Shown here: positions 26,624 to 59,995 of the stretch, piece by piece | How the letters are laid out: each line of letters opens with the position of its first letter | Numbering within the stretch: position 1 is the stretch's first letter | From: Viola odorata | Taxonomy: Eukaryota > Streptophyta > Magnoliopsida > Malpighiales > Violaceae | Length of the DNA stretch: 64,000 nt | Assembly (NCBI GenBank): GCA_963691705.1 | Contig: OY829541.1 | Span: forward strand, 39,573,661 to 39,637,660 | Direction of reading: 5' to 3' | Made by a program: the position numbers and the translations under genes | The notes under the pieces: model-generated | Databases searched by the model: none | What the model was told of the DNA's origin: nothing | Seen by the model: only the letters and a program-made list of their open reading frames with translations

Positions 26624-27209
26624 TGAAAACCATTAAGGCAATCCTAAGGGTATTTCTGTAATTATGACCCCTGCCGAAGAGGGAGTCCCACGAGCCTTGT
26701 CGGACATCTAAGCTATCGCTACCAAACCTTGAAGGGTTTACTGGGATGGTCGACATCAGCCGGGGGGAGGTCTCACGCATCTCTTAATGCACGGCATCCT
26801 CCTATCCCAGGGACCTATATAGATATCGCCCCCGACATGATCATAGGTATCGCCCCTGGTACCCTCCTCGGAGACATCAACCTTGACGTTACCACAGGTA
26901 TCGCCGATGACGTCGGGTTCAGGTATCGCCCGTGACGTCATCAGGAGCGACATCTCACCTGGATATCGCCCTTACATCCAGTTATCGCCTCCAGTGGCCT
27001 ACAAATACCCCTTAATGAAAAATATCAAGTAAGCCAGAATTCACTTACTAGAACCGCTGCTATTTTTGAACCACTTACTGACTTAAGCATCGGAGTGTCT
27101 ACGCCGGAGCCCCCCCTCCGGCGCCTTGCAGGTGTGTTCGACGGCAACTACAGCAACTCCGACCAACGGAAGTCACCATTCCGATCGTATAAGAGATAAA
27201 ATCTTAACA
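26624..27209 (+). repeat. 5' LTR of Tat element 1
   Basis: 586 bp, from TGAAAACC to CTTAACA. TATCGCC occurs six times between 26824 and 26989 (starts 26824, 26848, 26899, 26924, 26964, 26983). A perfect TGACGTCA lies at 26933-26940. A TATA-like CTACAAATACC lies near 27000. This arrangement looks like the promoter region. Confidence 0.93.
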
Positions 27210-27210
27210 A

Positions 27211-27230: not shown

Positions 27231-27295
27231 TCTTGGTGTATTAAGTGAGCATCCTTAATAGTCAAGCCCTGTTCAACTCAGAGATCGGAATAATC

Positions 27296-28345
27296 ATGAC
27301 TTCTGAGTCGGAGCGGACGCGACCTCCATCTTCTAATGTTCCTTTCTCGATTCGTAGACAGTTATTTCCTTTTGCTACTGCTGAACTTTCTGGGACGACA
27401 CAACAAATCAGTTCAGAATCCCTAAACCCTTTGACCAGGTCTGCAGGGGAAGCTCTTTCCTCGCAAGCGACCGTTTCGTTGTCCCAAATGGCGGGATCCA
27501 GCTTCTCTACTCCTGCTTCGATGGGATTTGTGTTAAATAGTACAGAACACCCTTTTGCGAGTGAAATAGCGGCCCTTCGTTCTCGGTTGGACTATTTGAC
27601 TGAAATGGCTGCCAGAATGACACCTGAAATCTCCGGATCGAGTGTCCCTCCCCGTGTCATGTTCACACCGTCTATTGTCACCGAGCGACCCTTGTCACCA
27701 TCATTACAGGGAAATCTCCGATCAACTTTATCCGTAGCTGATCCCCCGATTAATTTTGTGCAGCTCACTCAAGGACGAGTGGAACCTTATGTGCCGCAAG
27801 TGCCCCTAGGTCCCATCCCTTTGGAGGATCGGCACCTGGAAGAGGCCAGAAACCATTGGGACGGTCGAAGGGAAGGAGCGAATAGGGATTTATCTCCTGA
27901 GCGCAGTGAAAGATCCAGCAGTAGGAGATATCGAACTCGCTCGCCCAGAAGCCACAGTCGGTCTCCTAGGCGACATCCCACGCCAGATCCACGGAATCGG
28001 AGGCGTCCTGCGGAAATGTCTCCCCCACGCCAGGAGCGTGAAATTCTTGATGACACATCAGGTCATCCATTTAGCCGTCGTATAAGACGCCATAAGGTCA
28101 GTCGACATGTGAAGCTTCCCACTAAGACTTATGACGGCACCAGAGATCCCATTTCATACATCAATAAGGTGAAGGATTTTGTGCAGTTTCAGACGCACAG
28201 TGATGCGGTGTTATGCCAAATATTTGTTATGACATTATCAGGAGTCGCGCGCCTCTGGTTCGAGGGCCTTCCCGGTGGATCTATTAGCAATTTCGCACAA
28301 TTGGAATCCAAGTTCCCCATCTCAACGCCAAGGAGATTCTTCTAA
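27296..28345 (+). pseudogene. gag of Tat element 1, with internal deletion
   Basis: The start is the ATG at 27296. The N-terminus is Ser/Thr-rich. Residues about 190-260 are Arg/Ser/Pro-rich (RRYRTRSPRSHSRSPRRH). The gag core begins with VKLPTKTYDGTRDPISYINK and SGVARLWFEGLPGGSISNFA, then stops abruptly near 28310. The remaining core is missing and the sequence jumps to the gag C-terminal part in another frame at about 28330. That part has a CCHC-like knuckle (YCKFHKARGHFTEVC). The event is an out-of-frame internal deletion. Confidence 0.85.
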
Positions 28346-31300
28346 AGGTCGGGCATACGATCCTGATTTCCCTTCCCTTAATCTACCAAGGGCAGAGATT
28401 TTAGCGATAGTGGAACAGCGAAACCTTCCCATCCGGTACCCTGCGCCCGTAAAGCCCGGAGTACTTCTAAGGAGAAGAGAAAATGCTTATTGTAAGTTCC
28501 ATAAAGCCAGGGGGCATTTTACAGAAGTATGCAGGGACTTAAAATCAGCAATAGAACGTTTGGTGGAGGAAGGTTACTTGGGAGAATTCGCAACCAAAGT
28601 AAGAGAAGACACCAGAAATAATCCCACGAAAAGGGTCGCAGATGACCGACGGGTATCCCCTCGCGTCCCACAAAAGGATAATGCTCTCGGAGGAAGAGGT
28701 GAGGAAACTTTCGCAGTTGATGATGAGGGCTTCCCTATGATTAACATCATAGCAGGATGGACTCCTTACATGGATGAACCAGAACTACCGACGACGGCGT
28801 TAGGACAAAAACGCAAGCGAAATGGCGCGACAAAGAAAGGTGAAACGATAAGCGTTCTAGATCGCATGCTGTTAGCCTTCTCCGAGGAAGACGAGAAAGG
28901 CGTTGTCTATCCGCATAACGACGCGCTGGTGGTTATGCCCATCATTGCCAGTCACGGAGTCAGAAGAACTCTCATAGATAACGGAAGTGCAGTAAACCTC
29001 TTCTCGTTGGAGGCTTACAATCTCATGAAACGGCCCGATAACGAATTGATACCTTGTAAAAAACCCATAATTGGGGTGGACGGGATCCCAATCCCAGTCA
29101 CAGGGATAACCACTCTGCCCGTATACTTCAGAGAAGACACCTCCAAGCGGTCAGAGGATCTGTTATTCCTTTTCGTGGACCTAAACTTGCCCTACAATGT
29201 TATACTCGGACGACCTTTTCTCAACCGCTTCGGAGCGGTAATATCTCAGAAGCATTTGAAGATGAAATACCCCTCTTGGGACGGAGTGGTAGCGATAAAG
29301 GGCAATCAAAAATTGGCGGCCGAATGTTACCTGCTCATGACTCAAAAGAGTTGTGATAGGTATGTATGTATAACAACGGACCCATATGAACAAGGCGATG
29401 AGAAACGCGCTCAACCTCTTGACAAAATGGTGCCCGTATCGGTAATCGGCATAGAAAAAGCAGACTTCCTTGTCAGTGAAAGGCTCAATTCAGAAGAAAA
29501 CCTTCAGTTGGCTCGGTTATTGAACAAGTGTCGAGGAGAATTTGCATGGAAACCCGCAGACATGCTGGGTATATCGCGAGAAATAGCCGAGCACCGACTC
29601 AACGTTGACCCTGGCGCTAAGCCGATCCAGCAAAAGCGGCGCGCGTTCTCTAAGAAAAAAGCCTTAGCTGTTGATAAAGAAGTAGCGAAGCTCCTTGACG
29701 CTGGTTTCATCCGCGAAGTTCAGTACCCCACCTGGTTAGCCAACCCAGTCCTCGTTCCTAAGTCCAATGGAGACTGGCGTATGTGTATCGACTTCACCAA
29801 TTTGAATGATGCCCGCCCTAAGGACTGCTACCCGCTTCCCCGCATTGACCAATTAGTCGATCAGACTGCCGGGTACACATATTTGAGTTCACTTGACGCC
29901 AACTCTGGGTATCACCAAATTCCCATGGCCATTGAAGATGAAGAGAAGACTGCCTTCATCACTCCTACGGCCACTTATTGTTATACGGCGATGCCATTTG
30001 GGCTAAAGAACGCGGGGGCGACGTTCCAACGTATGGCAAACAAAATATTCGAAGGACAAATAGGGAGGAATGTGGAAGCCTACGTTGATGATATACTGGT
30101 AAAAAGCGCTAGCTTTCAGGATCACTTGCGGGATCTAAGGGAAGTCTTTGACGTGATGAAACGGCACAATATGAAACTGAACCCCCGGAAATGCATGTTC
30201 GCGTTTCAGACTGGAAAATTCCTGGGCTACGTGGTCAGCCAAAAAGGAATCCAGCCTAATCCGTCAAAGATTAAAGCTATACAAGACATGATATCTCCAA
30301 GAACCGTTAAGGAAGTACAAAGGCTAACAGGGCGCGTTATCGCCCTAGGGCGCTTTATTTCCAAACAAGGCGAGAAGTGTCTTCCTTTTTTCAAAGTCAT
30401 ACGCAAGAAAGCATCCTTTGGGTGGACCCCGGAATGTGAAAAGGCATTTGTTAGCCTAAAAGATTACCTATCGTCCGATCTGCTGCTGACCAGACCAGAA
30501 CTAGGTGATACTTTGTACCTATATCTCGGCGCTGCTGACGAAGTGGTCAGCGCCGTCCTCGTTCGCGACGATAGCCACACGCACCACCCCGTGTATTTTG
30601 TGAGTCACGTTCTGAAGGATGCAGAGTTGCGATACGCCTGAATTGAGAAAATAGCGTTCGCGCTAATACAAGCCACTCGAAAAATGGACAGATACTTCCA
30701 GTCCTTTTCCGTTATCGTACTTACAGATCAACCGCTGAAAAGGATATTTCGAAAGCCTGAGTCCTCGGGAAGAATGCTAATCTGGGATCTTGAACTCGAG
30801 CAATACGGGTTGTGGTATCAGTCTCGGCCATCTGTAAAGGCTCAAATCTTGGCAGATTTTATAGCGGAATGCACCTTTACGGAAGATCCGTTAACAGACG
30901 TACCCGAAGAGGAATGGGGCGATTTGGATCTCCCGTTTCCGGAGACTTATACGGACCTCTGGATCATTCATGTAGATGGGGCTAAAAATCAAGAATTGGC
31001 TGGAGCAGGAATCTTTATAAATGGGCCGAACGATATGCGAATACAATACGCTATCCGAATCCTGCAGCCATTATCCAATAATGCGGCAGAATATGAGGCG
31101 TTACTAGCCGGACTCCGGATAGGGAGAAGCCTTTCTTCCAAAGGTAGGCACGATACCGGAAGAACAGGAGACCTGCGTCTGAAAATTTGCGGTGACTCCA
31201 AACTAGTGATCGACCAGGTCTTGGGGCGCTCTCAAGCTCGGGAGCCCATTATGGTCTAGTATCTCGCCAAAGTGATGCGGGAGCTATTAGAAATAAAGAA

Positions 31301-32720
31301 AGAAGGCATGCAAGTCAGTTTTGAGCACATTCCCCGAGAGGACAACGCCGAAGCTGACAACCTTACCAAGCTGGCTGCAAACCCAGAAGCATCCATACCC
31401 AAAGGCGTGTATTACCGAGAATTACCTATACCCTCCTTCATGGAAGAGCAAGCATCTCTCTGTGTGGAAGAACTCGAGAACGACTGGCGAGTCCCCATAA
31501 TCAAATACTTAAAACACGAAGAACTGCCTGAGAATATCGCTGAAAAGAAAAGAGTGCTGAGACAGGCAACTCACTGTACGTATTATGACGGGGACCTGGT
31601 TTGAAGATGCTTTTCGCACCCAGCGGCCAAATGCATAACGGAACAAGAGGGTCTTCACACGTTACGCAAAATTCATGAAGGGATATGCGGTATGCATGTA
31701 TCGGGCGACACCCTGGCTGCACAAGTCTTCAGATCTGGATTCTATTGGCCCACTATCCGGAAAGATTGCCATGACTATGTGCAAACTTGCCCGAAATGTC
31801 AGGAGTTCTCTAAAATTCCTCGACGTCCCGCCACTGAAATATCCGAGATCATCGCTCCTTGTCCTTTTGCTAAATGGGGGATCGATATCCTGGGTCCGTT
31901 TCCAAAGGCAAGGTCCCAACTAAAATTTGTAATAGTGGCAGTGGACTACTTTATGAAGTGGGCGGAGGCTGAAGCGGTCGCCAACATCACAGCGGAAAAA
32001 ACTTGGCGTTTCTTCAAGCACCAAGTTATCATGAGGTTTGGCGTACCCCGTATCCTAATCAGCGATAACGGGGCACAGTTCACCAGCCAATTCATCAAAG
32101 ACCAATGATCGAAATTCGGGATAGAGCAACGATTCTCTTCCGTGGCTCACCCCCAAACCAATGAACAAGTAGAAGTAACAAATCGGAGCATCCTCAGTGG
32201 CATTAAGAAAAATCTTGAGGGGTCTAAAAAGAAATGGGCTGACGAGCTGCCATACGTGATGTGGGCGTACCGCATGACCGTTAAAACCAGTACAGGAGAA
32301 ACACCTTTCGCATTGGCCTTCGGAACCGAGGCTGTTACGCCGGTAGAAATCGGTACCATGAGCCTGCGAGTGGCCCACTTCCGAGAGGAGCTGAATGAGG
32401 AAAGGTTACGAGCTAACCTTGACGCGTTACCGGAGGTCCGAGTAGAAACCCTCCTGAAAATGCAACACTACAAACGAAAGATGGCCTGTTACCATAGCAA
32501 GCGCGTCAAAGAACGGTTGCTAAAGGCAGGCGACCTGGTGCTCAGAGACAAACGAGTGGCTGGTCAACGTATGGGGAAGCTCAGCCCAAACTGGGATGGA
32601 CCATATCGCGTTACCCGAGTTATCGAAAAAGGAGCCTATCATCTGGAGACGCTCGATGGTACTCCCCTATCTAACTCTTGGAATATTGCTCGTTTGAAAT
32701 TATATTATCCTAGACCTTGA
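28330..32720 (+). pseudogene. pol of Tat element 1 (PR-RT-RH-aRH-IN), four nonsense codons
   Basis: One frame runs from the gag knuckle to the integrase end, with TGA 30639, TAG 31257, TGA 31602 and TGA 32106 as the only breaks. Protease: LIDNGSAVNLFS, then VILGRPFLN. RT: WRMCIDFTNLN, SSLDANSGYHQI and the catalytic YVDD near 30090. A first RNase H follows, ending with the DAELRYA region. A second, archaeal-type RNase H has HVDGAKNQELAGAGIF, NNAAEYEALLAGL and CGDSKLVIDQV. Integrase: HHCC finger (HEGICGMH, CPKC), acids in WGIDILGPFP, ISDNGAQF and NEQVEVTN, where the usual NGQ reads NEQ. Its C-terminus is NWDGPYRV. The double RNase H is diagnostic of Tat elements. Confidence 0.94.
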
Positions 32721-32819
32721 ACTATCTGCACCTTTGACTGATGTCAATCCTAACCTTAGCTAACGCTCCCTGAGAGAGCTTCCTTGGTTGTTTGTGGTTG
32801 CTTTTTGTGCAGATAGAAA

Positions 32820-33899: not shown

Positions 33900-36190
33900 T
33901 TAAGGTTTGAAGGCCTCTGTGACCTCGTCACCTTTGTACGCATCTGCTCCATGGACCTCTTCAAAGCATTCAACCAAGATAGTGGTCGTCCGCTCGACGT
34001 GCCACATGCTCTTATCGGCTGAGTCCTCCGTTAGAGCGACTCTCTCTTCCTCTAGGGCAGTTTTTTTCCTCGCCAAGGATAACTTCTCTCCTTCCAGCAC
34101 GACATTGTTTGCATTAAGGGTGGACACTTGCCCCGACAGCTCCTACTGAGCTAGTAACAAGCGAGTGTGTTCCTCCAGCAACTTATTCTTTTCATTTCAC
34201 TCTCGCGAAAGTTCAGAAAGGGACGCAGTAAGAGAAGCAGCCTGACGCTGTACGTGCTCTGTCCAGTAGTGAAATTTCACAAAATTGGAAAAGAGATTAG
34301 AGCGTAGCAAATTCGCCTTATCATCATCTGTCTGCGAGAGGAAGGCTTCCCGCTCAGCGGCGGTCGATAGTATTTGGGCTGCCAAGAAAGCTGAAACCTC
34401 AACTGAACCATCGCCCCCAAGAGCCGCTAAGCCTGTATTGCGAAAATCATATAAGCCCACTTGGTGAGTCACAGTACCAGGCTCACTCGAGGAACTTAGG
34501 TCCGCAGCATAGTCGAAGGTGGAGGCCTCTTCGCCACAACGTTGCGATAAAGGAATGCTTGAGGGCACAAAGGCCAGAGGGACAGAAGGGTGGACTTGAG
34601 AAGAAGAACCCCCTTGGACGGCATAGGAACCGTGAGGGTGGTAGCCCGAAAAGTCCTGTAAACCTTCTTGATAGCCCGAGTTAGGACCATATGTATGAAC
34701 AGGCCCACCGAAGGAATTGGGTGAAGCCCCGAAAGTCTCAGCCGTACCCATGTTCACCAAAAACCCAGAAGGGTGAGTCTGGGAGCATCCATAGAAACAA
34801 AGGTGTTGTCCGGTCCGACTTCCGCCTCGGCAACAGTAGAAGATAAGCTTCCACCGTCACCCTCCGGTCGGGATCACTTCTTCGAGCCAACCAGCACATA
34901 ACCCATGTCCATCTCGCCTAGGGGGGACGCGACAGTAGAAACAGCGGCAGTATCCTGCAAGGAACCCAGCAGAAACACTGATAAGAGAAACGGGTAAAAC
35001 AACGCCCGACATCAAGGTATAACGTATCATGGATAAAAAGCACACTCACAACAGTTGTGTCAAGAGGAGGCGCTTTAGAAGAAGCTGCCGCGTCTGGAGA
35101 AGGAGTGAGAGCAGCAACACTCCTGGTTCTTCTCTTCCTCTTTCCTTTGTCAGGAACCCTAGGGGCTTTAGAAGGAGAAGACCGAGCAGAAGGGGTAGCG
35201 ACGGTTACAATAGGAATACCCGAAGGAATGTTGGTATTCCCCTCACCGGCTGAGGAAGAAGATACTTGAGCAAGGCTCACGGAAATAGCAGGTAGAACAG
35301 TGGAGTTATCGGCAGCTTCCGTAGAGGTGGCCTTCTCTTTTTCTTCTCTTTCCTGGGCCCTTTTCAGTCGCTTCATAACGCTTTCAGGCTTGTAGTTGGG
35401 ATCTGTCGCTGTATGATGACAAAATAACGTTAGCATTAGTACCAGTGATAATAAAGAAGGAAGTGACTCGACACTCACGTCTAACGCAGTCCTTCATATT
35501 GACTCTGCACGCCACATAGCGGATATGAACGCTGATTTTCAGTTGAAGAAGTTTGTCTAACCAGCCTTGTTCGCGCTGAGGAAGAGTCTCCGGCCGACCC
35601 CAGACATTGTCCTTGACGTCTTGGTTAAACCCAGACCGCTACCAGGAACCAGGGTCTTCAGGAAGATCTATCACAAAGAACTCTTTCTTCCAAGCATCGA
35701 CAGAGGACTCAATATGGAGAAGTTTCCAGGTGAAGGACTTGAGTGAGTCATCGTCATAACGAGGCGATATCGTTATCACTCCCCGACACTTCATCAGCTT
35801 AAAAACTGATTTAACCAGTAAAAGAGAAGGGGAAGTGATCCCCTTATATTTACAAAGTTCTAAGAAGGCACAAACGTAGCAATGCGCATTTGGAGCTAAT
35901 TGAACAGGATTCAAATCGCAGACAATGAGCAACTATTTTATGAAAGAGTTGATGGGAAGCTGGAAACCGTAACGGAACATTTGTGTATACAGGACCCTAC
36001 GCTTGCCCGTCAAAACGCTATTCAAGCGTACCGACTCAGGGGCAACAGTGGCCTTATAACCATCAGGGATAACAGCATTATGTGCGGCTAAATGCTCACT
36101 TAGTGCGACCTCAGAGGTGATACTACTAACTATAGCATCCATCTTTTTCTCATCGGCAGATCTCGACTCAGAACGACGAGTCTTAGCCAT
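33900..36190 (-). pseudogene. Tat antisense gene A (element 1), three exons, broken
   Basis: Transcribed against gag-pol. Exons: 36190-35479, 35408-35050 and 34954-33900, with introns of 70 and 95 bp (GTGAG..CAG). Exon 1 carries a domain like the 'putative gypsy type transposon' (Transposase_28) family: LTGKRRVLYTQMFRYGFQLP, then ITISPRYDDDSLKSFTWKLL. Exon 2 is basic and Ser-rich. Exon 3 has HQVGLYDFRNTGLAALGGDG and a coiled coil. Breaks include TAG at 35933-35935 and another stop late in exon 1, a stop and frame change early in exon 3, and stops at 34197 and near 34146. It is colinear with gene A' (60161-62488) and paralogous to gene B. Function is unknown. Confidence 0.82.
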
Positions 36191-36358
36191 GGCAGAAATA
36201 AAAAAGTAAAGATGAAGAAGACGACGAAAGAAAAGAGGAGGTACCTTTAGAAAGAAAGTGCTTCGAGAACCTTGAACGGTGGAAAGAAAATAAGACGGCT
36301 AGAGAAAATATGAAGAAAGCAGAACGGCAAAAGTAAGCAAAAGAAAATAAGTATTGGG

Positions 36359-36365
36359 TTTTATA
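36359..36365 (-). promoter_or_regulatory. TATA box of antisense gene A (element 1)
   Basis: TATAAAA on the minus strand within GGGTTATAAAACCC, about 170 bp upstream of the gene A ATG. The same word and distance occur at gene A'. Confidence 0.6.
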
Positions 36366-36860
36366 ACCCTAATAGCCAAAGAAACGACAGACGTTGCAGT
36401 CGTTGCGTGAGAGGATCACAAGGAAAAGACTCAAGCAATGAGTACAATTCTAGAAGAGCGCGACAACGCTTCGATTTTGCTAAAATTACAAAGCACGTTA
36501 GCCCATGGCGCTAGAAAAAATGGACACGTGTGTCTATGCCAGGATGACTTTTCTCCCGCATCTATGAGAAGATCGTAAACATTAAATGCTCTGAAAAGAG
36601 GATTTTTTTTTGAAATAAGACAAGAGCGATACTACACTAGAGAAGATAACGCGGAATGGCGTTAACCAAGCCGGTATCCTCCGGGATAACGTGGAAAAGC
36701 AAAGCAGAGATTATTTATTATCTAAAAATGAAGTACAAATATCGTTTCGCACGGAAAGGCGTTATTACAATACAGAAAAAGTGAATAAATGGGAAAATCT
36801 TCCCAGAGGACCAGCCTTGACCAGTCGATGGCCGGCACAGATATCGCTGCCACCATTCGC

Positions 36861-39074
36861 CTACTCCTCCCCGAGAGAAAGAAAATCTCCCTCGCCTTCG
36901 CCTAAATCCTTTATCTTCTTGGAAGTATAATCAGACAACTTGGTCAAATCAACAGTTCCCTGGCGATAGAGATCTTTAAAGCCAGCGATACAGACCTCCA
37001 TAGCCTTATTTTTCCACCAAGCTATCCTCGAGGGTACTTTGGCCAAATCCGCATCGCGGGACAATATCTCTTCACGAAGGAGAGAGTTCCTTTTATCAGC
37101 CGCCACTAGCTCCGCCTCCAGTAGCGCCACTTTAGCTTTCCCTTTGGATCTTTCTCGTGCGAGATCGGCGCGGCACTCGTTCAACTCTGCCCGGGTACGA
37201 TCTTGAAGCTTGGACAGCTCTGTTACCTTCGCCAAAGCGGCATCTAATTGTTCCGTCGAATCGGAAGAGCGTCGAACCTTGCCGCTCTGATCCTCGAGAA
37301 AATAGTTCAGCTCGCGAAAGCTAGCCAGCATATCATTCAGGAGACGTGAATGTTGAACTTCAGGAGGGTGCAACAGGAACTTTTCCTTGTCCTTCGAAGA
37401 ACTGAACATCTGACCCACTATGGTCCCTATAGGCTCATCTCGCGATAGCGGATCTGATATCCCTAAAGCACGAAGCCCGTCAGTACCGAAAGACGACAGA
37501 TCCAGCTGAAACGCAACATTTCCTTGAAGACCTTGAGGGGAAAGGTTGGCGATAAAGGGAGGAGAGCAACTCTTTATGGAATTACCAACGCCCGAGATCG
37601 ACGAAAGGAATAAAGGCTGAGGTTTCTTCGAGACAGGATTAGAAGGAATGTTTGGATTTGAAACCGGCACGGCCACGTCCGGAATACAGGAGGAAATCGG
37701 AGAATCAGGGCCACCGGATGGCAAAGGTGGGTCCACCGCCGCGGGAACCTCACCAGTTTTGGAAGGAACAACGGAAGGTGCCTTGACAACCTCCGCCACT
37801 TGCGAGGTACTCGCGATAGGACAAGTGTCGACCTTAGTGGGGGGAATTGCGTTAACTCCCTTCAAAGGAGGAATGGGGGGACCAGTTTTTTCTTTCCGGA
37901 TTTTCTTTTTGAGACGCTCTGTTTCAGCGGCCATATCCTCACTATTGTCCTCGGATGACTCAGCCAATGGATCATTTTTCCTCGCCCTGAGCTTCATCCG
38001 TTGGGCAAGGGTGGCGTGACGCAGTTCGGAACCAGCATCCATGCTCTCGTTATCGCTGTCAATCATTTTAGTCACAGGACGACTCGAAGACACTCCCCTA
38101 CCCCGAAGTGGCAACCAATTCTCAAGAAAATGAGAAGATTGGGCGGAAACGTTGCGCGCTGTGACAGTCTTAATCCTCCTTTTTCTCGGCGGGATAATTG
38201 GATGGCTGGAACTTTCGGGAGGGGGAGAAGGAGGTAACGTCTGAAGCGGTACCACGTTCAGAGGAGTGTTATTTCCACTGGAAGAACAACCCTCCGCGCT
38301 GCCTGTCAATGGAATATATTAATATAGCAAGTCAAGTGAAGCGATAACGCGGCAAAAGAAAAACTCACCAACGACACATTCTTTCAAGGGTCTGAACCGA
38401 GCAAATTCCCGAATGCGGAAAGGCCCTTCTATCTCTAACAGAGCAGAAACATGGGTCACATCGATGCTGGACAACACTTCTGGGTTTTTCCAATCGGCAC
38501 TAACAATCTTTTGATTAAAGCCTCCGCGCCACCAGCGGGACGATAGTCGAAGGGTGAAGAAGCCATTTTTCTAATTATCCACGTTTTCTTCAAAACCTTG
38601 GAAGTTCCGCCAGAAAAATCGCACGACGGCATCATTCCATCTAGGAGTGATATCCACCAAGCAGGCACGACAACTCAGCTTGAAAAATGTACGGAACAGA
38701 TCAAGGGATGGAGTGAAAATACGCTTCATCTCGCATGACCGAAGGAATGCATAAATCCCACACCAGGAAGGCGGAGTTATTTTAACCGGATTGAGATCGT
38801 AGTGGTCTAGCAGCTTCATCAGAGAAGTATGAAGTGGGAGATGAAATCCATAGAGGAACATCTTGAAGTAAACCAGCCGAAACGTTCCCCACATGGCGTC
38901 ATGAAGCTGAATATCTTTCGTAGGGATATATGGGCGACAACCCAAGGGGAAGGTGATACTGTTCTCCTCTAACTCCGCCCTTAAAACTTCATCACAATCG
39001 AAAATACTACGAGCTCTCCTAGCCTCGAGATCTATGGGATTTTCGACTCTCGCAGAAGCTCCAATATGAGACAT
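36861..39074 (-). pseudogene. Tat antisense gene B (element 1), two exons, one nonsense codon
   Basis: Exons 39074-38369 and 38302-36861, with a 66-bp GT-AG intron, about 715 residues. Start at MSHIGAS because its partner B' starts at the equivalent place. Exon 1 has the same domain as gene A: YFKMFLYGFHLPLHTSLMKL, PPSWCGIYAFLRSCEMKRI and DITPRWNDAVVRFFW. Exon 2 has FLENWLPL, a long Ser/Pro-rich linker, then LDLSSFGTDGLRALGISDPL and a coiled coil (AALAKVTELSKLQDRTRAEL). It ends in an acidic FLSLGEE. The only break I see is a TAG at 38571-38573, where B' has Trp. It could be a near-intact antisense gene. The product's role is unknown. Confidence 0.85.
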
Positions 39075-39261
39075 AAGGAATTGGGAAAATAAACTACGGC
39101 AAGAGAGAGACAAAATACCTGGAAGGGGTAGTCAGAGAACAGACCGTCGTCGCCGGCGAGCAGTTGTGAAGACTCTCCTCGAGCAAGAAGAAACACAGGA
39201 GAAAGAGAAAGTGTGAAAAATTGCAGAATATTAGCAAAAATGATGAAAGAGAATAGGGTTT

Positions 39262-39273
39262 CCCTTATAAGGG
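39262..39273 (-). promoter_or_regulatory. TATA-like box of antisense gene B (element 1)
   Basis: CCCTTATAAGGG, a palindromic TATA-like site about 190 bp upstream of the gene B ATG. B' has a T/A-rich box (TTTAAAAG) at the same distance. Confidence 0.45.
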
Positions 39274-39546
39274 TTCAGCTTGAAGAAGAAGACAGCCTGT
39301 AAAATTGAAACACGTGCGGAGCAGAAAGAGACGTCTGGACAGTCACTTATGTCTTTCAGAAAAGACGGTTATTGACTAGAAATCAAAAGACAGTTGCACT
39401 CAGCCATTGATCTCTCTCGGCGATAACCCCTGACATCCGAAGAAGTAAATTAGAAAGGCGATAGGGGAACAAAAGAAAAGGGAAGGTTATCTTATTCATT
39501 TTCGGAAAGCCATACGACATCTACAAAGAGACGAAGACATTCTAAA

Positions 39547-39966
39547 CTAATCGCTCTCAGACCAAGAGATACCATAGCAATAAACTACATCATCATCCGA
39601 GGGTGATGGCTCCCTGTTAAAGGAAGGGAAAGGCTCTTCCTTCCTCTTTCCCACATGTATCAGTGATCGGTTGGGCTCCTCTTTTGTGGTCGACATCGCC
39701 GTTTCAGCGCTCGCGGAGGGGAGAGCTATTTTTGGCAAGACACGGGGAGGAAGAGAGGGTTCATCCCCCTTTTCAGCAGAAGAGGCATGGTACTTGCAAA
39801 GCGGTGCAGACACTTTTGAGGCATTTTTCCTCTGCCTCTTGAGTCCCCGCCGGCGAACGAACGGCCTCCACGGAGGCGACGGAGGAGGATTGTCTGAGTC
39901 CGGCGAAGTTGGAGGAGTTGGCGGAGAATCCCGCGCCGCTGTATCCAAAAAATAAGAGTCAGCCAT
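39547..39966 (-). CDS. Tat antisense gene C (element 1), intact 139-residue protein
   Basis: Start at MADSYFLDTAARDSPPTPPT, the point at which homology with C' (48894) begins, although the frame is open further upstream. The N-terminus is strongly conserved and Pro/Ser-rich (DNPPPSPPWRP). A basic patch follows (RRRGLKRQRKNASK), possibly a nuclear localisation signal. The C-terminus is acidic and aromatic (DDDVVYCYGISWSESD). No known domain is recognised. It has no intron and no internal stop, and it is the only one of the eight cassette genes here that is fully open. Expression is unknown, and it may still be a relic. Confidence 0.75.
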   Translation of the reverse strand: MADSYFLDTAARDSPPTPPTSPDSDNPPPSPPWRPFVRRRGLKRQRKNASKVSAPLCKYHASSAEKGDEPSLPPRVLPKIALPSASAETAMSTTKEEPNRSLIHVGKRKEEPFPSFNREPSPSDDDVVYCYGISWSESD

Positions 39967-40034
39967 GAGATCACGGGCGATCTGCCAAGAGGAAAAATAA
40001 ACAAGAAGATGGACAGAAAGGAGGGAAAGGATCC

Positions 40035-40043
40035 CTTTAAATA
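40035..40043 (-). promoter_or_regulatory. TATA-like box of antisense gene C (element 1)
   Basis: TATTTAAAG on the minus strand, about 70 bp upstream of the ATG. C' has TATATAA at about the same distance. Confidence 0.45.
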
Positions 40044-40433
40044 GCCAAAAGAGGGGGAAAAGCTTTGGATTTCCCAACACGACTTTTGAGAACTGACACG
40101 CGTACAACCTGGAGTAAAAATCTAGATTTACAGTCACGCCTGTTGAAATCTCCCCCAGACCGAGGAAAACTGAAAATTAGCCCAATCGGCGGACAAGGAG
40201 GTGGCGGCACAGAATTAATACGGAACGGTTAGCGGGGAAACCGTCCAGTGACTGACTCGTTTTCAGTTGGGCTGAGAATGCCTCCAATCGAAAAAAGACA
40301 AAGGACGCATTAAAGAAGAAGAACAGTGATTAAGGGCACAACGAAAGCAGTTTATTTATTATGGCCTAATGGCCGAAAGGTACAGCCGCATAACTAGGAG
40401 AAAAGAAAAAAAGCTCAAAGGGAGCCACCACCA

Positions 40434-40811
40434 TCAGGCATCAGAGCCGGCGTCATCGGGAACTTCGGGAATGTCTCTCAGAGAGTCCATGACCAGAGTC
40501 AGGTCAGCAGATGTGACCCTCATCCCCTTCAAGCAGCACCCCCGCATGTTCTTGCGCTGCTGCAGCATGGCGATTACCACCTAAATCCGAGCGATTCAGG
40601 TGGCCAACCTTGACACGCTCTCTAAAGGACTGAAATCCTCCAGAGACGTGGCTCCCAGCCTGGAATGGAGTGGGGTCAGCATCCCTTGCAGCTCCAGGAT
40701 GTCCTCGGAAGTCTTGACCAGCATGTTCTCTAGGAACCCGACGTCACCATCATTGAGGTTCTTGAGAGTGTGGCCCTTGGAAAGGAGAAATTTTTTAGTC
40801 AAATGATCCAT
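40434..40811 (-). pseudogene. Tat antisense gene D (element 1), 125 codons, two nonsense codons
   Basis: Small gene next to the 3' LTR. It starts MDHLTKKFLLSKGHTLKNL and has the hallmark VKTSEDILELQGMLTPL. It then has stops (TGA at 40596-40598 and a TAG 15 bp on), continuing with MLQQRKNMRGCCLKGMR and a C-terminal IPEVPDDAGSDA. D' at 47967-48343 is colinear. The N-terminal half looks helical. No known family was recognised. Confidence 0.78.
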
Positions 40812-40860
40812 GATGCGAATTGCCTAAGATGAGGAGAGCGTGGGTGGAGAAAGCCCCCTG

Positions 40861-40867
40861 ATTTATA
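40861..40867 (-). promoter_or_regulatory. TATA box of antisense gene D (element 1)
   Basis: Minus-strand TATAAAT about 50 bp upstream of the gene D ATG. D' has TATAAATA upstream of its ATG. Confidence 0.6.
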
Positions 40868-41660: not shown

Positions 41661-42250
41661 TGATAACCATTAAGGCAATCCTAAGGGCATTTCTGTAATT
41701 ATGACCCCTGCCGAAGAGGGAGTCCCACGAGCCTTGTCGGACATCTAAGCTATCGCTAACAGACCTTGAAGGGTTTACTGGGATGGTCGACATCAGTGGG
41801 GGGGGGGGAGGTCTCACGCATCTCTTAACGCACGACATCCTCCCATCCCAGGGACCTATAGAGATATCGCCCCCGACATGATCATAGGTATCGCCCCCGG
41901 TACCCTTCTCGGAGACATCAACCTTGACGTTACCACAGGTATCGCTGATGACGTCGGGTTCAGGTATCGCCCGTGACGTCATCAGGAGCGACGTCTCACC
42001 TGGATATCGCCCTTACGTCCAGCTATCGCCTCCAGTGGCCTACAAATACCCCTTAATGAAAAATATCAAGTAAGCCAGAATTCACTTACTAGAACCGCTA
42101 CTATTTTTGAACCACTTACTAACTTAAGCATCGGAGTGTCTACGCCGGAGCCCCCCCTCCGGCGCCTTGCAGGTGTGTTCGACGGCAACTACAGCAACTC
42201 CAACCAACGGAAGTCACCATTCTGATCGTATAAGAGATAAAATCTTAACA
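41661..42250 (+). repeat. 3' LTR of Tat element 1
   Basis: 590 bp, from TGATAACC to CTTAACA. It is a close match to 26624-27209, followed by the target duplication CTTTC. A G-run near 41800 differs in length between the LTRs. Confidence 0.95.
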
Positions 42251-47737: not shown

Positions 47738-47877
47738 TATGCCCAAACGAAAACTAGCCCGAGTGTTTACCAAGGGCTATCACAGCGTCTCCGGTCCTGC
47801 CCCTTCAGAGGTTTCTGCCCTAATGAGGGCTCGACGATCGATAAAGGTGTATCTTCGAAATGCCTTTTTTCGAAGTC

Positions 47878-47885
47878 TATAAATA
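47878..47885 (+). promoter_or_regulatory. TATA box of antisense gene D'
   Basis: TATAAATA, 82 bp upstream of the D' ATG. Confidence 0.6.
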
Positions 47886-47966
47886 GGCCTTACATTTTGC
47901 ACTTGCCTCATAACTCTCACAGCTTTTTCACCTCTCTCTTCAAATTTCCTTATCTCTCTTCTTTTC

Positions 47967-48343
47967 ATGGACGAAGTCACCAAAAACTTCCTGCTCTCCA
48001 AAACCCATGCCCTGAGGAACCTAACTCAGGCAGACACCGATTTCCTGGGTTCGCTGAGCATTAAGACCTCGGAGGATATACTGGAGCTCCAGGGGATGCT
48101 GACTCCCCTGTAAGCTAGACAGGCTGCCGTTACCCTGGAGGATTTTTGTCCCGTGGAGAAAGCGGTGAAGCTGTTTCTCAAATTCAGCTGCTGATGACGA
48201 CGCTACAGCATAGGAAGGACTTGCCGGGATGCTGCCTGAAGAGCATGAGGGCCTATTCTTCTGAACTGACGGCTCTTGCGGATGCCCTGAGGGAAATTCC
48301 TTTCCTGGAGTGGGAAGATGATGACGCTGGGTCGAATGCCTGA
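47967..48343 (+). pseudogene. Tat antisense gene D' (element 2), broken
   Basis: Starts MDEVTKNFLLSKTHALRNL and has the hallmark IKTSEDILELQGMLTPL, followed at once by a TAA. A frame change lies near 48146. It then continues as TLQHRKDLPGCCLKSMRAYS and ends DDDAGSNA with TGA at 48341-48343. It is colinear with gene D of element 1; the pair defines the family. Confidence 0.78.
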
Positions 48344-48819
48344 CCAGCGATGGGGATCCTCTCGGCGTGTCTTTCTGTGCTTCTCTGGGGCCACCTTTTG
48401 TAACTCCGGGCCGTTAGGCCTTTTTGTAATCTCGGGCCGCTGAGCCCTTTAAATAAATAAATATGCTTTCCCTTATTCACTTGCCGCGCTGTCAATGTTT
48501 TTCTTCTTTCTCATATCGTCTTTCTTAGAAAACAACTTCTATTCTCACTAATTGTGAGCGTGGTGTCCCTTGGGATCCTATTAACTTTATTTGCCTACCT
48601 AGCTCATAATGACGATTTTCCCATATCGCATCCGTTATGAATGTATTTTGCGCCGTTTTTCAGTGTTAACGGATTAGACACCGATTTCGGTGCCTCCTGG
48701 CTGGTGCAGACTTTTGACAGTTGCGGAGTCAGATCTTTCCCCCCAATAGACGTTATCTCTGATAGCATTAACTGTCCTCGATAATACGCGAAAAGGCAGG
48801 CACGCTTCCTCACCTCGGC
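48344..48819. other. Intergenic spacer D'-C' in Tat element 2
   Basis: No coding region. Includes CCGTTAGGCC and CCGCTGAGCCC followed by AAATAAATAAATA near 48410-48470, resembling the equivalent stretch after gene D in element 1 (GCCATTAGGCC, AATAAATAAA). It is probably the 3' end of the D' transcript. Confidence 0.45.
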
Positions 48820-48826
48820 TATATAA
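48820..48826 (+). promoter_or_regulatory. TATA box of antisense gene C'
   Basis: TATATAA, 68-74 bp upstream of the C' ATG. Confidence 0.6.
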
Positions 48827-48893
48827 TGGGGCTCTTCCTTTCTTTCTCTGTTCATCTTTTTTCTTCTTTCTTCTCACTCTTACTGATATTTCC

Positions 48894-49382
48894 ATGGCTG
48901 ACTCCCGTTTTTTGTATACTGCTGCTTGCGATTCTCCTCCGACCCCTCCAACTTCTCCCGACTCCGACAATCCTCCACTCTCACCCCCCTGGAGGCCTGC
49001 CAGACATTCCGTAAAGTGCCGGGGTCGCAAGAGATTGAAGAAAACAAAGAAATAATCTTTCAAATCCTTCTTTGCCGACTTTGAACCTCACTACCTTTCG
49101 CTGCGGCAAAAGGATGAAGCGTCACCATCCGTCCCTTGTCCTTTTCCCAAGGACGGGACTTCTATGCAAGATGCCGCCCCAGGACTGGTTACCCCGACCC
49201 TGGAGGAAAGCTCCCACGCCGCTTCAAAGGAGGAAACTGCCCCTACGACAGGTTCCGCGACTAGGCTTGGTAAAAGACCTTTCGAGATTGGCGAGCCCTT
49301 TCCTTTCTAAAACAGTCGGTTGCCATCGTCTCCGGAGGATTACGATTACGTCTATGACATACACTGGGCGGACGAGGACTGA
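48894..49382 (+). pseudogene. Tat antisense gene C' (element 2), broken
   Basis: Starts MADSRFLYTAACDSPPTPPT and continues DNPPLSPPWRP, nearly identical to gene C. A TAA follows KRLKKTKK at about 49053. The remaining protein is spread over two frames. The conserved acidic end DYDYVYDIHWADED stops at 49380-49382. The extreme conservation of the N-terminal 30 residues contrasts with the decayed middle. Confidence 0.78.
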
Positions 49383-49706
49383 CGATGTCGCACTTATTGT
49401 AGATGCCGCTGGCTTTCTCTTTCAATAAATAAGATAGAATGAAATGAAACAAAATGTCATTTGCCTTTTTCTTTTCGCTTTTGTTATAATCGCCGCCCTA
49501 TGGGATAACTGCCGCTGGACAACCAATTACCGCTTCATACGACCATCTTTGTGCTGTTTTTTGTAATTAACGAGTCTTTCTTTTACGACATTCAAGGCGA
49601 GCGCTTGACTTTAAGTTTCTGTCAGGGTCTTTCCACGTGTCCCATTTGTCCCGTACGTGTCTTGCTGTGATAGGTTGCCCTTCTGTCTGACTTTTCCACC
49701 GTCTCT

Positions 49707-49714
49707 TTTAAAAG
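49707..49714 (+). promoter_or_regulatory. TATA-like box of antisense gene B'
   Basis: TTTAAAAG, about 190 bp upstream of the B' ATG, the same distance as the TATA-like box of gene B. The site is weak. Confidence 0.35.
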
Positions 49715-49900
49715 GAAAAACGCTCCTTCTTCGTACCTTTTTGCTCCTTTTTATACTTCAGAACTCTCTTCGTTTTACGCTCGCTCTGAGGAAATTCTCT
49801 CGTTCGCATCCATACGACTCGCCTATTAATTTCAGTCTTCTCTCTTTCAAGGTATTCTGCTTGATCTTGCTTTTGATTTTCCTTTGCTTCTTTATCTATC

Positions 49901-50054
49901 ATGCCTCGCACGAGATCTCAATCTAGCTCTTTAGCTACCCCTAGGCCAATTTCTCGATATCCCGAGCTTGAAAACACCCCTAGCATCTTTACTTGCCCTA
50001 CTATCTTACGCCTCGAACTGGAAAGCAATAATATTACCTTCCCCTGCGGCTATC
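49901..50054 (+). pseudogene. Tat antisense gene B' (element 2), 5' part before the nested insertion
   Basis: Starts MPRTRSQSSSLATPRPISRY and runs to LELESNNITFPCGY, matching gene B (ELEENSITFPLGC). It is cut by the CRM-like element, with CTATC duplicated at the site. The gene resumes at 57544. Confidence 0.82.
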
Positions 50055-51025
50055 TGATGCGAATCCATGCATCCAGGTGCCGTTATCGCCAGCTGGTCCA
50101 ATGACTCGAGCCATAGCTCAAAAGCTTCAAGACAGATTGTCATCTCTCATTCACAAGGAGCTGGAGTGTGAGATGACAAGTGAGAAAGTTGCACTTCGAG
50201 AGAAGACGCCAAGAGTGGTGAATCTTCTCACCTTCACCATGAGCGATGATGATTCTGCTAGAAACGACACTTGACCGTTTCCCTCAAACGGCACTTGTCC
50301 GTTTCTCACAAACGGCATTTGTCCGTTTCCCTACCCGTTGCCGTTTCACTCATCTATCGCGCGTGCCGTTTGCTGTGCCCGTTCCGCGTATCCGTTTCGC
50401 GCCTGCCTGCTCTTTGTTGGAGACGGCTCCTGACCGATTCGGCACCTGTCTGTTTCGCTATTTCTGTCTGCTGTGAAGGAAACGGTGCCTATCCGATTAG
50501 CTTGTCCTGGAGCTGGCACGCGTTTGACTGTTTTTTTTTTGCTTAATTAATTAATTAGACCCTTTAATTAATTAGTTAAGTGTTTTAATTAGTTAAGTGT
50601 TTTACCTTATTTAATATTCCTATTTTGGAATTAGGGTTTTTCTTGTAAGATACTATATAAGGAGCCGCTTGGCCTCCTTATTTCTTTGGTTGTTATTTTG
50701 ATAAATTGAGACTATCTCTTTCAAATCTCCGCCCCTTGTTCAAGTGGTTGAACCTTGTTCTTCTTGAGTCCGCAATACTTGAGTCGTATACAAGTAAATT
50801 CTGGAATTGCATCCTACTTGTTGTCTGCCCTAGGTTGATATCCACCAGGGATATAGGCGTAGTGGATTCGACAAGGACCCTCTCTTGTTCGGATTTAGGT
50901 TGGCTGTTGCTTAGCGTTCAGCAGGCTTAAATTGTGTAAGTGAGTTCTATTATTCCGCAGGGAAATCCGTCTTTGACAACGATCAAATTTGGTGCTACAC
51001 ATCCTAAGGAACCAGGATCGTATCA
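50055..51025 (+). repeat. 5' LTR of element 3
   Basis: 971 bp, TGATGCGAATCC to CGTATCA. It is closely similar to 56604-57538 but has an extra segment of about 36 bp of TTAATTAG-type repeats near 50560-50605. Confidence 0.95.
50077..50274 (+). other. Polyprotein C-terminal tail encoded inside the LTR
   Basis: An open frame in the 5' LTR (GPMTRAIAQKLQDRLSSLIH, then acidic SDDDSARN) corresponds to the end of pol. In the 3' LTR the same frame has a TGA at 56656-56658, directly after GPMT. The 5' LTR thus keeps the ancestral tail, which the actual pol copy has lost. Confidence 0.75.
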
Positions 51026-51027
51026 GT

Positions 51028-51039
51028 TGGTAGCGGAGC
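51028..51039 (+). other. Primer-binding site of element 3, divergent initiator-Met type
   Basis: TGGTAGCGGAGC, 2 bp after the LTR, matches the initiator-tRNA-Met complement (TGGTATCAGAGC) at 10 of 12 positions. Confidence 0.5.
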
Positions 51040-51809
51040 TTAAGGTGTTCAAAGATTGGTAAGTATCTTTATTTGTTTCAAGTTTTCATCGTTGAAATCG
51101 GTAATTCATTCTACTCCATTCAAAACCGATTTCTTTGCTGTACTAGGTTCGTTACATGTGCAAAATTCAGGCAGTGTCGAAATTGAATTTTAATATATAG
51201 CTATTGAAGTCCGATTTTGGCGATTTTGATCTCGTTGGAAAGCTGAACCTGTTAGGCTTCCGAATCAAAAAGAATCAGTCGATTCAGAGTTAAGAATAAA
51301 AAGTTGTGATCAAAACACTAAGTTGTGTTCATAGTCAAAAAAAAAGAAAAAAAAAGAAGAATTCAATTCTGCAAATACAAAAATATATAGAAGTATTTGC
51401 GCCACAAAAGTTCGATTAATCAAGGAAACGAATTGAAGGCCAATTGTGTTTGAAATCGGAATTGGAGATTAATTTTATTTGAGTCCTTTCGAGTCAAATA
51501 GAGCTTTTCTTTGATTCCTTAATATTGCTTTCTATTCCACTTGTTATTCGTTTAATTGATTGATCTTGCAATTATTCGAATAACAAGTATCACCGTTTGT
51601 TGGAAGCTGGTTTTCTTTGAGAGTCTTCTTGGAAGCTTTTCTTTGAACTCTTGAGTCTCACTAAACACTTGAACAATTGCAGGAGTTTTTGAGAGGATTT
51701 TGGGTGAGTTTATTAGAGTGTTTAAACACGAGAGTAAACACGTGAGGGAGTGCTAGGTTAGTGCAATTTTACCTTTTCTTTTGTGTTGTGAATTTCAGGA
51801 AACTTATAG
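51040..51809. other. Untranslated leader of element 3
   Basis: AT-rich, no supported ORF. Leads to the gag ATG at 51810. Confidence 0.55.
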
Positions 51810-53627
51810 ATGTCTCAAGAAGGAGTACAATAACCCAATTTGTCGGCCATGTTAGCTGGCATAACGGAACAGCTTAGAACAATGACTGAATGACAATTAG
51901 CTGCCGATGCAAGGATGGCTCGGGTGGAAGCGTTGGCCACTATAAACCCGAACCCTAAAGCAGCGCAGGATCAACGTGATGGACATCTGACCGATCTGTC
52001 CGAGGAGGATGACAACGCCCGTCGACCACGTGATGTGAATCGGCAGCGTGCTCTTGCCCTCGTTCCTCCCAGGCGACTTGCTAGACGTGGACCACAAATT
52101 CCACGTCCTGATCTGGAAGAAGAACCTGATGGGGGAGAGGGATGGATAAATGCAAGGGATGGTCAGCACAGGGGGAGAAGAGACGGTCGGGGTGTTAGAA
52201 GAGAACAGGAGGAGGACCGATTGGATGCTAATCTCAGCAACATCAAAATAAAAATACCTCCGTTTGAAGGTACTGACGACCCTGATACCTTCTTGACATG
52301 GGAACGGAAGGTAGATGCTATTTTCTTATGCCACAATTATTCGGAGAGTAAAAAGGTTAAGCTGGCAGCAGTGGAATTCGGTGGATATGCTAGTCATTGG
52401 TGGGAGCAGTTCAACCTGAAGAGAGTAGCTGTTTATGCTGGTCCGATTAATGATTGGGGTGAGATGAAACAGGCGATGAGGCAACGGTTTGTTCCTACCC
52501 ATTTTCACCGTGAGCTTCATTAACGGCTCCAAACCTTGAAGCAAGGCAGCAAGGGAGTTGGGGCTTATTTTAATGAGATGGAGATTGCTTTAGCTCAAGC
52601 AAGGATTACTGAGGAACCTGAGGTAACAATGGCTCGGTTTATTGCTGGATTGAATGCTGAGATTGCCGACGCCTTGGAGCTGACTCAATACAATACTCTC
52701 GAGGAGATGCTTCACATGGCTCAAAAGATTGAGAAGCATCGTAGGAAAGCTAGGAGTTCCTATACGACTGCTAATTCCTCATCTTGGAAGAAGCCGTCGT
52801 GGTCCAAGGGAGACAAAGGTGGCTCCGTTTCAAAGAGCCCCTCTAGTGCCGTTATCCCTTCCAAAATGGCTACTAACAAATCTTATACTCCACCTGTGGA
52901 TCGGCCAGCCACTAAGGATATTGTCTGTTTCAAGTGCAACGGCCGAGGGCATAAGAAATCGGAATGCCCAAATAAGAGAGTTTTCATCATCAGGCCGAAT
53001 GGAGAGGAAGAATCGGATGATGAGCAAGAGGAATCAGAAACTGAGGAAGATGGTCATGCCGATTCGGATGCTGACTGTCAGAGAGGTGAGCAGGTTCAGT
53101 TGCTTGTTGTACGTCGGAATCTAAGCGTACAGGCCATCGAAGAAGTGTGTGACGAGGAACAACGGACTAATCTGTTCCATACCCGTGGTGTGATTGACAA
53201 AAAAGGTTGTTCCATCATCATTGACAACGGCAGCTACACTAATTGCGCGAGTTGGTTAATGGTCGATAAACTCGGTTTACCAACGGTAAAACATCCGAAG
53301 CCATATCAGCTTCATTGGATGACAGACGGGACCGGCGTCAGGGTGAATCGGCAGGTGCTTGTCAGATTTAGTATCGGCAAGTACCAGGATGAAGTACTTT
53401 GTGATGTGGTCCCTATGCAAGCGAGTCATATCATTCTTGGCAGACCATGGCAGTTTGACAGAGACGCGACCCATGAGGGAAAACGGAATCTCTATAAGCT
53501 GGTCAAGGATGGTAAGAAGTTTACTTTAGCGCCCCTCACACCAGCCGAAGTCCTTGAGGATCAGCAATGGCTTGCTAAGTCTTACGCTGAATATGAAATT
53601 GCAAAACAGCTTGCGAGAGAAAAATAA
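51810..53627 (+). pseudogene. gag-protease of element 3, four nonsense codons
   Basis: A single frame from the ATG at 51810, with stops at 51831-51833, 51891-51893, 52521-52523 and 53625-53627. The gag core has IPPFEGTDDPDTFLTWERK, YASHWWEQF and MKQAMRQRFVP. A CCHC knuckle (CFKCNGRGHKKSEC) lies near 52930-52970. An acidic linker follows. The protease-like part has IIDNGSYTNCAS at the active-site position and HIILGRPWQFDRD. The last stop separates it from pol, still in the same frame. In CRM-type elements gag-pol is one ORF, so this stop is taken as a lesion. Confidence 0.9.
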
Positions 53628-53630
53628 GGT

Positions 53631-56600: not shown

Positions 56601-56658
56601 GGATGATGCGAATCCACGCATCCAGGTGCCGTTACCGCCAGCTGGTCCAATGACTTGA
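53631..56658 (+). pseudogene. pol of element 3 (RT-RNaseH-IN), one frameshift
   Basis: [31 protein letters not shown] and catalytic YFDD near 54515. RNase [30 protein letters not shown] and DALSRRYA. Integrase finger: [13 protein letters not shown] with CLIC. The frame shifts by an extra base in the CCCC run at 55686-55689; the rest reads on from about 55690 in the next frame. The integrase core there has SMEFVVGLP, with Glu where the first catalytic Asp is usual. It then has IVSDRDTKF, HPQTDGQTEVVNR and a C-terminal PFQIVEKINNNAYKL. It enters the 3' LTR and ends at a TGA (56656-56658). Confidence 0.93.
56591..56603 (+). other. Polypurine tract of element 3
   Basis: AAGGGGGAGGGGA directly abuts the 3' LTR and lies inside the coding frame. 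Confidence 0.85.
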
Positions 56659-57538
56659 GCCAGAGCTCAAAAGCTTCAAGACAGATTGTCATCTCTAATT
56701 CACAAGGAGCTGGAGTGTGAGATGACAAGTGAGAAAGTTGCACTTCGAGAGAAGACGCCAAGAGTGGTGAATCTTCTCACCTTCACCATAAGCGATGATG
56801 ATTCTGCTAGAAACGGCACTTGACCGTTTCCCTCAAACGACACTTGTCTGTTTCTCACAAACGGCATTTGTCCGTTTCCCTACCCGTTGCCGTTTCACTC
56901 ATCTATCGCGCGTGCCGTTTGCTGTGCCCGTTCCGCGTATCCGTTTCGCGCCTGCCTGCTCTTTGTTGGAAACGGCTCCTGCCCGATTCGGCACCTGTCC
57001 GTTTCACTGTTTCTGTCTGCTGTGAAGGAAACGGTGCCTATCCGATTCGCTTGTCCTGGAGCTGGCACGCGTTTGACTATTTTTTTTGCTTAATTAATTA
57101 ATTAGTTAGGTGTTTTACCTTATTTAATATTCCTATTTTGGAATTAGGGTTTTGCTTGTAAGATACTATATAAGGAGCCGCTTGGCCTCCTTATTTCTTT
57201 GGCTGTTATTTTGATAAATTGAGACTATCTCTTTCAAATCTCCGCCCCTTGTTTAAGTGGTTGAACCTTGTTCTTCTTGAGTCCGCAATACTTGAGTCGT
57301 ATACAAGTAAATTCTGGAATTGCATCCTACTTGTTGTCTGCCCTAGGTTGATATCCACCAGGGATATAGGCGTAGTGGATTCGACAAGGACCCTCTCTTG
57401 TTCGGATTTAGGTTGGTTGTTGCTTAGCGTTCAGCAGGCTTAAATTGTGTAAGTGAGTTCTATTATTCCGCAGGGAAATCCGTCTTTGACAATGATCAAA
57501 TTTGGTGCTACGCATCCTAAGGAACTAGGATCGTATCA
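56604..57538 (+). repeat. 3' LTR of element 3
   Basis: 935 bp, TGATGCGAATCC to CGTATCA, followed by CTATC. It lacks about 36 bp of TTAATTAG-type sequence present in the 5' LTR. Confidence 0.95.
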
Positions 57539-57543
57539 CTATC

Positions 57544-59988: not shown

Positions 59989-59995
59989 TATAAAA
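59989..59995 (+). promoter_or_regulatory. TATA box of antisense gene A'
   Basis: TATAAAA within GGGTTATAAAACCCC, 172 bp upstream of the A' ATG. Both word and distance match gene A. Confidence 0.65.

Follow-up and report, generated by a model that had tools for sequence, protein, structure and literature searches.

The window analysed here is a stretch of 64,000 nucleotides from Viola odorata (assembly GCA_963691705.1, contig OY829541.1, positions 39,573,661 to 39,637,660 of the forward strand); all coordinates below are those of the window. It contains a retrotransposon, hereafter E1, flanked by long terminal repeats (LTRs) and target site duplications (TSDs). As had been claimed in a sequence-only reading of the window, E1 carries four genes, A to D, in the region that separates pol from the 3' LTR, and they run antisense to gag-pol. 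The same four genes, in the same order D-C-B-A, are also located on the antisense strand of a second and strongly diverged element, E2. The main features are as follows.

26624..27209, plus strand: 5' LTR of E1, 586 bp, preceded by the TSD CTTTC at 26619-26623
27245..32720, plus strand: gag and pol of E1, the end of pol being at 32720
36190-33900, minus strand: gene A (exon 1 36190-35479, exon 2 35408-35050, exon 3 34954-33900)
39074-36861, minus strand: gene B (exon 1 39074-38369, intron 38368-38303, exon 2 38302-36861)
39966-39547, minus strand: gene C, a single open exon of 139 amino acids
40811-40434, minus strand: gene D, about 125 codons, with in-frame stops at 40598 and 40583
41661..42250, plus strand: 3' LTR of E1, 590 bp, followed by the TSD CTTTC at 42251-42255
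47740..63500: E2, in the opposite orientation to E1 (sense strand minus, cassette on plus), with its gag-pol outside the window
47967 to 62488, plus strand: E2 cassette (D' ATG 47967; C' ATG 48894; B' ATG 49901 to stop 59488; A' 60161-62488)
50055-57538: nested LTR element in exon 1 of B', with gag-pol-like frames on the plus strand and the TSD CTATC at 50050-50054 and 57539-57543

The start codons of the four E1 genes were inferred. Each of the four shows protein similarity between E1 and E2. In a self-comparison of the window, the sole match between an LTR of E1 and the end of E2 extends over about 90 bp at about 80% identity, and the two elements are therefore taken as belonging to different families. 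Genes A and B appear to be spliced, as had been read from the sequence: A has two introns and B one, all of them GT..AG and located at corresponding places in E1 and E2. Exon 1 of A is 712 bp long in both elements; the lengths of exon 2 of A are unequal modulo 3, implying either a frame change in one copy or the use of another splice site. Out of six intron copies, A' intron 1 and the B' intron contain TACTAAC, the branch-site consensus. In E1 and E2 alike, genes A and B are preceded, 36-55 bases ahead of the ATG, by an AGGTAYYT-like sequence that by eye resembles a splice donor (about 36245 and 39119 on the minus strand, 60125 and 49851 on the plus strand).

Gene A encodes a TRP28 region, a basic linker and a helical C-terminus, and gene B a TRP28 domain and a long C-terminal helix; the two are paralogous over their N-terminal and C-terminal parts. 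The corresponding profile, PF04195 (Transposase_28), scores above its cutoff of 26.2 bits in B (48 bits), A' (34) and B' (41.3). In E1, the TRP28 region of A is split by a stop; the fragment 35642-35932 has a weak PF04195 match (E 0.044) and the other fragment has none. A protein database search with a TRP28 alignment as the query returned three hits, P0001 (B-like), P0002 and P0003 (distant), the first two from contigs of about 1.5 kb. In an unrooted tree of the TRP28 segments of seq­uences numbering 7, A and A' group together (0.97), as do B and B' (0.79), and P0001 joins the two B proteins (0.90); P0002 is nearest to A with a support of just 0.48. This grouping suggests, with modest support, that the duplication giving A and B is older than the split between E1 and E2. 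Exon 2 of B has no match among the 8000 protein-database candidates scored. One candidate from IMG/VR (L001) was rejected as a chance-word match, its open reading frame (ORF) being by eye DNA-ligase-like.

The two other genes are short. Gene C encodes a conserved proline-rich N-terminus, a basic cluster and an acidic tail; it has no Pfam match and no homolog among 34 protein-database candidates. D and D' share 61.5% and 49% identity over two pieces. The first 48 residues of D' gave no trusted domain match and one below the cutoff; D itself was left out of the protein-database search.

The coding nature of the cassette was assessed by a nucleotide alignment of E1 and E2 made blind to frame, in which mismatches were then counted by codon position. 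The six coding segments pooled for this count were D, C, exons 1 and 3 of A, exon 2 of B and that portion of B exon 1 which follows the insertion point; exon 2 of A and the beginning of B exon 1 lie outside this set. In the pooled segments, mismatch is 0.39, 0.35 and 0.58 at codon positions 1, 2 and 3 (p=2.5e-39), and the third-position excess is found in each of the six segments taken singly (p 1.3e-4 to 1e-10). The three non-coding segments (0.55, 0.50 and 0.53) have no third-position excess, either together (p=0.21) or singly (0 of 3, p 0.26-0.34). Over 986 trimmed codons, the proportion of nonsynonymous differences (pN) is 0.31 versus 0.756 for synonymous ones (pS). The B' pieces on each side of the nested element were compared separately. 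Finite ratios of the nonsynonymous to the synonymous rate (dN/dS) were obtained for five of the 11 E1/E2 pieces (0.10, 0.13, 0.14, 0.16 and 0.32) and none from the other six. The purifying selection that had been anticipated is supported, as selection in the past. Six-frame protein similarity between the cassettes amounts to 1,462 bits on the antisense strand (23 hits) and 613 bits on the sense strand (17 hits), part of the latter being necessarily a mirror signal. Judged from these comparisons, the four minus-strand genes are real and their proteins were under selection in the past, before the insertion of either copy.

The copies in the window are nevertheless decayed, and the expectation of working genes in E1 was not confirmed, as in-frame stops are found in A, B and D and only C remains open. 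Gene A has stops at 35935, 35641, 34199 and 34145 and also changes frame between 34954 and about 34630; gene B is interrupted by one in-frame stop at 38573. Splicing as an explanation of these stops is ruled out, since they lie in exons conserved in E2. In E2, A' has stops at 60857 and 62027, C' at 49053 and 49308, and D' at 48111 together with a frame change, and B' is disrupted by the nested element as well as by frame changes. Such breakage in both elements is what would be expected if the frames were chance or relic ORFs devoid of any past function. This explanation is most improbable, as the third-position excess of the frame-blind test is confined to coding segments, the introns are conserved and PF04195 is matched above its cutoff; a third-position mismatch of about 0.58 also excludes that E2 is a recent copy of E1. 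As the listed stops differ between E1 and E2, the decay was independent, and it is therefore no argument against a function of A-D in intact relatives.

Candidate promoter and polyadenylation signals of the E1 genes are located as follows (positions relative to the ATG).

36359..36366, minus strand: TATA-like TTATAAAA of A, with TATAAA at -175 (-172 in E2)
39264..39271, minus strand: TATA-like CTTATAAG of B, at -196
40036..40044, minus strand: TATA-like CTATTTAAA of C, at -77 (TATATAA at -74 in E2)
40861..40867, minus strand: TATAAAT of D, at -56 (-89 in E2)
36714..36719, minus strand: AATAAA of B, 142 bp past the B stop (none after B in E2)
40351..40360, minus strand: two overlapping AATAAA of D (likewise two overlapping after D' in E2)

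The distances first read for the TATA-like boxes (170, 190, 70 and 50 bp for A, B, C and D) agree with those measured (175, 196, 77 and 56 bp). The box of A lies within 17 bases that are identical in E1 and E2. On the antisense strand, five of the seven matches to TATAWAW precede an ATG of the four genes by 30-220 bp (nominal p 1.2e-4), compared with one of three on the sense strand; all six antisense AATAAA matches (four sites once overlaps are merged) follow a stop codon by no more than 200 bp (nominal p 8e-7), compared with two of 12 on the sense strand. Separate promoters for A, C and D are thus supported by a conserved placement of putative TATA boxes. A G-box shared by the promoters was considered and set aside as too weak (8 matches in 2,400 upstream bases versus 8 in 7,116 coding bases, palindromes being counted twice); its occurrences are just before A' and both B genes.

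Since transcripts of the four antisense units would be complementary to the full-length genomic RNA, the units might act mainly as RNA, these transcripts dampening the element through double-stranded RNA and small interfering RNAs (siRNAs), the proteins being secondary. A role of this kind has been proposed beside a protein role in PMC7264820. However, each of the four genes has segments with a third-position excess and the intron positions are conserved, which implies that the proteins were selected, and a mainly RNA-based function appears improbable.

The predicted proteins can be considered in terms of a nuclear role. Clusters of the form K-[KR]-x-[KR] are found in the second exons of A and B and in C, and can be read as nuclear signals. 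For the C-terminal part of B', the prediction is a single helix of 95 residues (residues 77-171; predicted local distance difference test (pLDDT) mostly 73-96 in ten-residue blocks) in a model built on a two-sequence alignment, with a mean pLDDT of 72.5 and a predicted template modelling (pTM) score of 0.34; such a long helix would be as expected of a coiled coil. A search of solved structures gave one match, at E 0.96.

These features could also suit proteins that serve not regulation but integration or the entry of the pre-integration complex into the nucleus, TRP28 being then a DNA-handling domain recruited from another element. The name of the domain, Transposase_28 (PF04195), and the basic clusters of A, B and C fit this alternative, and PMC7264820 mentions that proteins of antisense ORFs (aORFs) may aid nuclear steps of retrotransposition. 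On the other hand, neither catalytic residues nor a nuclease family could be recognized, TRP28 is described as lacking similarity outside transposable elements (PMC11963269), and separate promoters on the opposite strand do not suggest packaging with gag-pol. A role in integration or import therefore seems unlikely, if less so than one exerted mainly through RNA.

The reading preferred here is that A-D are accessory genes with a role as nuclear regulators, and it can be viewed as follows. Each antisense gene would be transcribed by the host RNA polymerase II from its own promoter, independently of the LTRs. Only the antisense strand carries these sequences as introns, so that, as the replication cycle implies, splicing of the sense RNA would not remove them; in the genomic RNA, which corresponds to the other strand, they never appear as introns and can therefore persist. 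A and B would be nuclear proteins that bind DNA or chromatin via TRP28 and may pair through their long C-terminal helices. Together with the small C and D, they would tune the expression, the silencing or the nuclear entry of the element, in a manner modelled on the accessory genes of complex retroviruses. As A, B and D are broken in E1, any such protein would have to be supplied by other copies.

Several points weigh against this reading or restrict it. The regulatory role is proposed by analogy, and DNA binding by TRP28 is a published prediction, as the AlphaFold model of the TRP28 exon (mean pLDDT 41) is unusable. In E1, K-[KR]-x-[KR] clusters are absent from D and from exon 1 of both A and B. 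The initial claim of one promoter per gene is supported for A, C and D, where the TATA-like box keeps its place in both copies, but weakened for B, whose box in E2 is just a TTTATAC at -151. TATAWAW misses the boxes of B, and that of C in E1; the p-values for TATAWAW and AATAAA are nominal because the distance windows were set after the E1 positions had been seen, and AATAAA follows A in neither copy, B in E1 only and C in E2 only. The constraint is deduced from two copies, both broken. Synonymous sites are saturated, hence the six pieces without a dN/dS value, and codon trimming by amino-acid identity is biased toward constraint, a bias from which the frame-blind test is free. Taken as a whole, it is very probable that A-D are true accessory genes, and the probability that they are accessory genes and nuclear regulators jointly can be put at roughly 0.6. 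A fuller proposal, according to which four antisense genes, each with a promoter of its own, form a conserved set in some Retand-type elements, with two ancient TRP28 paralogs forming a nuclear heteromeric DNA-binding regulator (possibly anti-silencing) and two small undescribed partner proteins, is tentative and on balance doubtful. If true, it would add to a plant retrotransposon a layer of control like that of complex retroviruses.

Concerning the host element, the two LTRs of E1 differ by a Kimura two-parameter distance of 0.035 (16 transitions and 4 transversions over 586 aligned bases), and four in-frame stops interrupt pol (30639, 31257, 31602 and 32106). A second RNase H (aRH) between the RNase H (RH) and the integrase (INT) is the arrangement of Ogre and Retand within Tat (PMC6317226). 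In E1, an RVT_3 domain sits between RT_RNaseH and the integrase, in agreement with the earlier attribution to Tat. It is cut in two by a stop, and the flanking pieces cover profile positions 2-81 and 86-122 of 123, each singly just below the Pfam cutoff (21.0 and 19.3 versus 21.6 bits). The antisense TRP28 (PF04195) ORF between pol and the 3' LTR that characterizes Retand is also present. E1 is thus provisionally considered as a Retand-type element of the Tat clade of Ty3/gypsy, the antisense TRP28 being used here in place of the reverse transcriptase (RT) tree on which the lineage is formally based. Its LTRs fall within the published Retand range of 315-1,194 bp (PMC11963269). In contrast, its pol-to-3' LTR region (8,940 bp) and internal region (14,451 bp, both from coordinates) are longer than in any cluster listed for recently active Retand elements (2,933-6,566 bp and 7,380-12,869 bp, respectively; PMC11963269), these ranges being descriptive and not definitional.

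Tandem repeat arrays in the pol-to-3' LTR region are optional in Retand and found in about half of the elements, according to published descriptions. Tandem Repeats Finder (TRF, score 40) detected no tandem repeats in 26000-43000. An 84-nt repeat in four degenerate copies is located at 32828-33288, between pol and gene A, and a related sequence at 63161-63498 in E2. Just inside the 3' LTR, a 34-bp block (41616-41649 and 47749-47782) is 94% identical between E1 and E2, which is above the identity of the coding segments; a 16-base part of it is repeated exactly at 40256-40271, between genes D and C. A priming tract is expected to be purine-rich, and this block is not. Elsewhere in the window, an 841-amino-acid frame on the minus strand (162-2687) is by eye like the endonuclease/reverse transcriptase of a long interspersed nuclear element (LINE), and frames on the plus strand at 16691-20547 resemble by eye the exons of a plant beta-xylosidase gene.

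Antisense TRP28 genes are an already published hallmark of Retand. The survey of Vicient 2025 (PMC11963269) reports 104 antisense ORFs of at least 600 bp in 63 Retand clusters, 57 of them with TRP28, and TRP28 in all but two of the 63 clusters (97%) when shorter ORFs are included. The sequence-only reading, which took a single antisense ORF as the usual case, was in this respect overstated; it also overlooked the paralogy of A and B, the second cassette in the window and the decay of E1. Multiple aORFs in Tat/Athila elements, as well as ORF3/4 of Silene Retand-2, are also named in the introduction of PMC11728184, and aORFs are reviewed in PMC7264820 together with their promoters and the double-stranded RNA alternative. 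PMC11963269 predicts that TRP28 binds DNA, reports Smc-type domains in some antisense ORFs, a further likeness to the E1 cassette, and gives the function of the antisense genes as an open question.

No description of a four-gene antisense set or of a TRP28 pair was found in the literature listings and passages searched (figures, supplements and the 2011 extra-ORF survey aside), and a prior description is possible. E1 departs from the text of PMC11963269 by its two paralogous spliced TRP28 genes, although Figure 3 of that survey may already draw pairs. The short genes C and D fall below its 600-bp cut-off, which suggests that some accessory genes escape notice when ORFs are filtered by length. 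What looks new is the pairing of TRP28 genes, the presence of two short genes and the 8.9-kb pol-to-3' LTR region. A conserved set that combines an old TRP28 pair with two short genes provides concrete proteins to localise and test, and it illustrates how a retroelement that passes through RNA can retain genes with introns, namely by having them on the other strand.

Among known systems, gene23 of maize Grande (Gomez-Orte et al. 2013, as told in PMC7264820 and PMC11963269) is, like A-D, an accessory gene antisense to gag-pol within a long internal region on the 3' side, and it has its own promoter, as A-D would have. One gene is reported for Grande, compared with four in E1, the likeness being one of description and not of sequence comparison; the nuclear location of GENE23 and its promoter activity were shown (PMC7264820), whereas both are deduced for E1. 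Silene Retand ORF4 and rice RIRE2 likewise have an antisense ORF after pol, with a Transposase_28 domain in Retand ORF4; in contrast to E1, a four-gene set with two TRP28 paralogs is not part of their description in PMC7264820, on which this comparison is based. Outside plants, HBZ of human T-cell leukaemia virus type 1 (HTLV-1) is an antisense, separately promoted nuclear regulator (PMC11963269), as the E1 genes may be by analogy and with no homology claimed; its promoter lies in the 3' LTR, whereas those proposed for E1 are internal.

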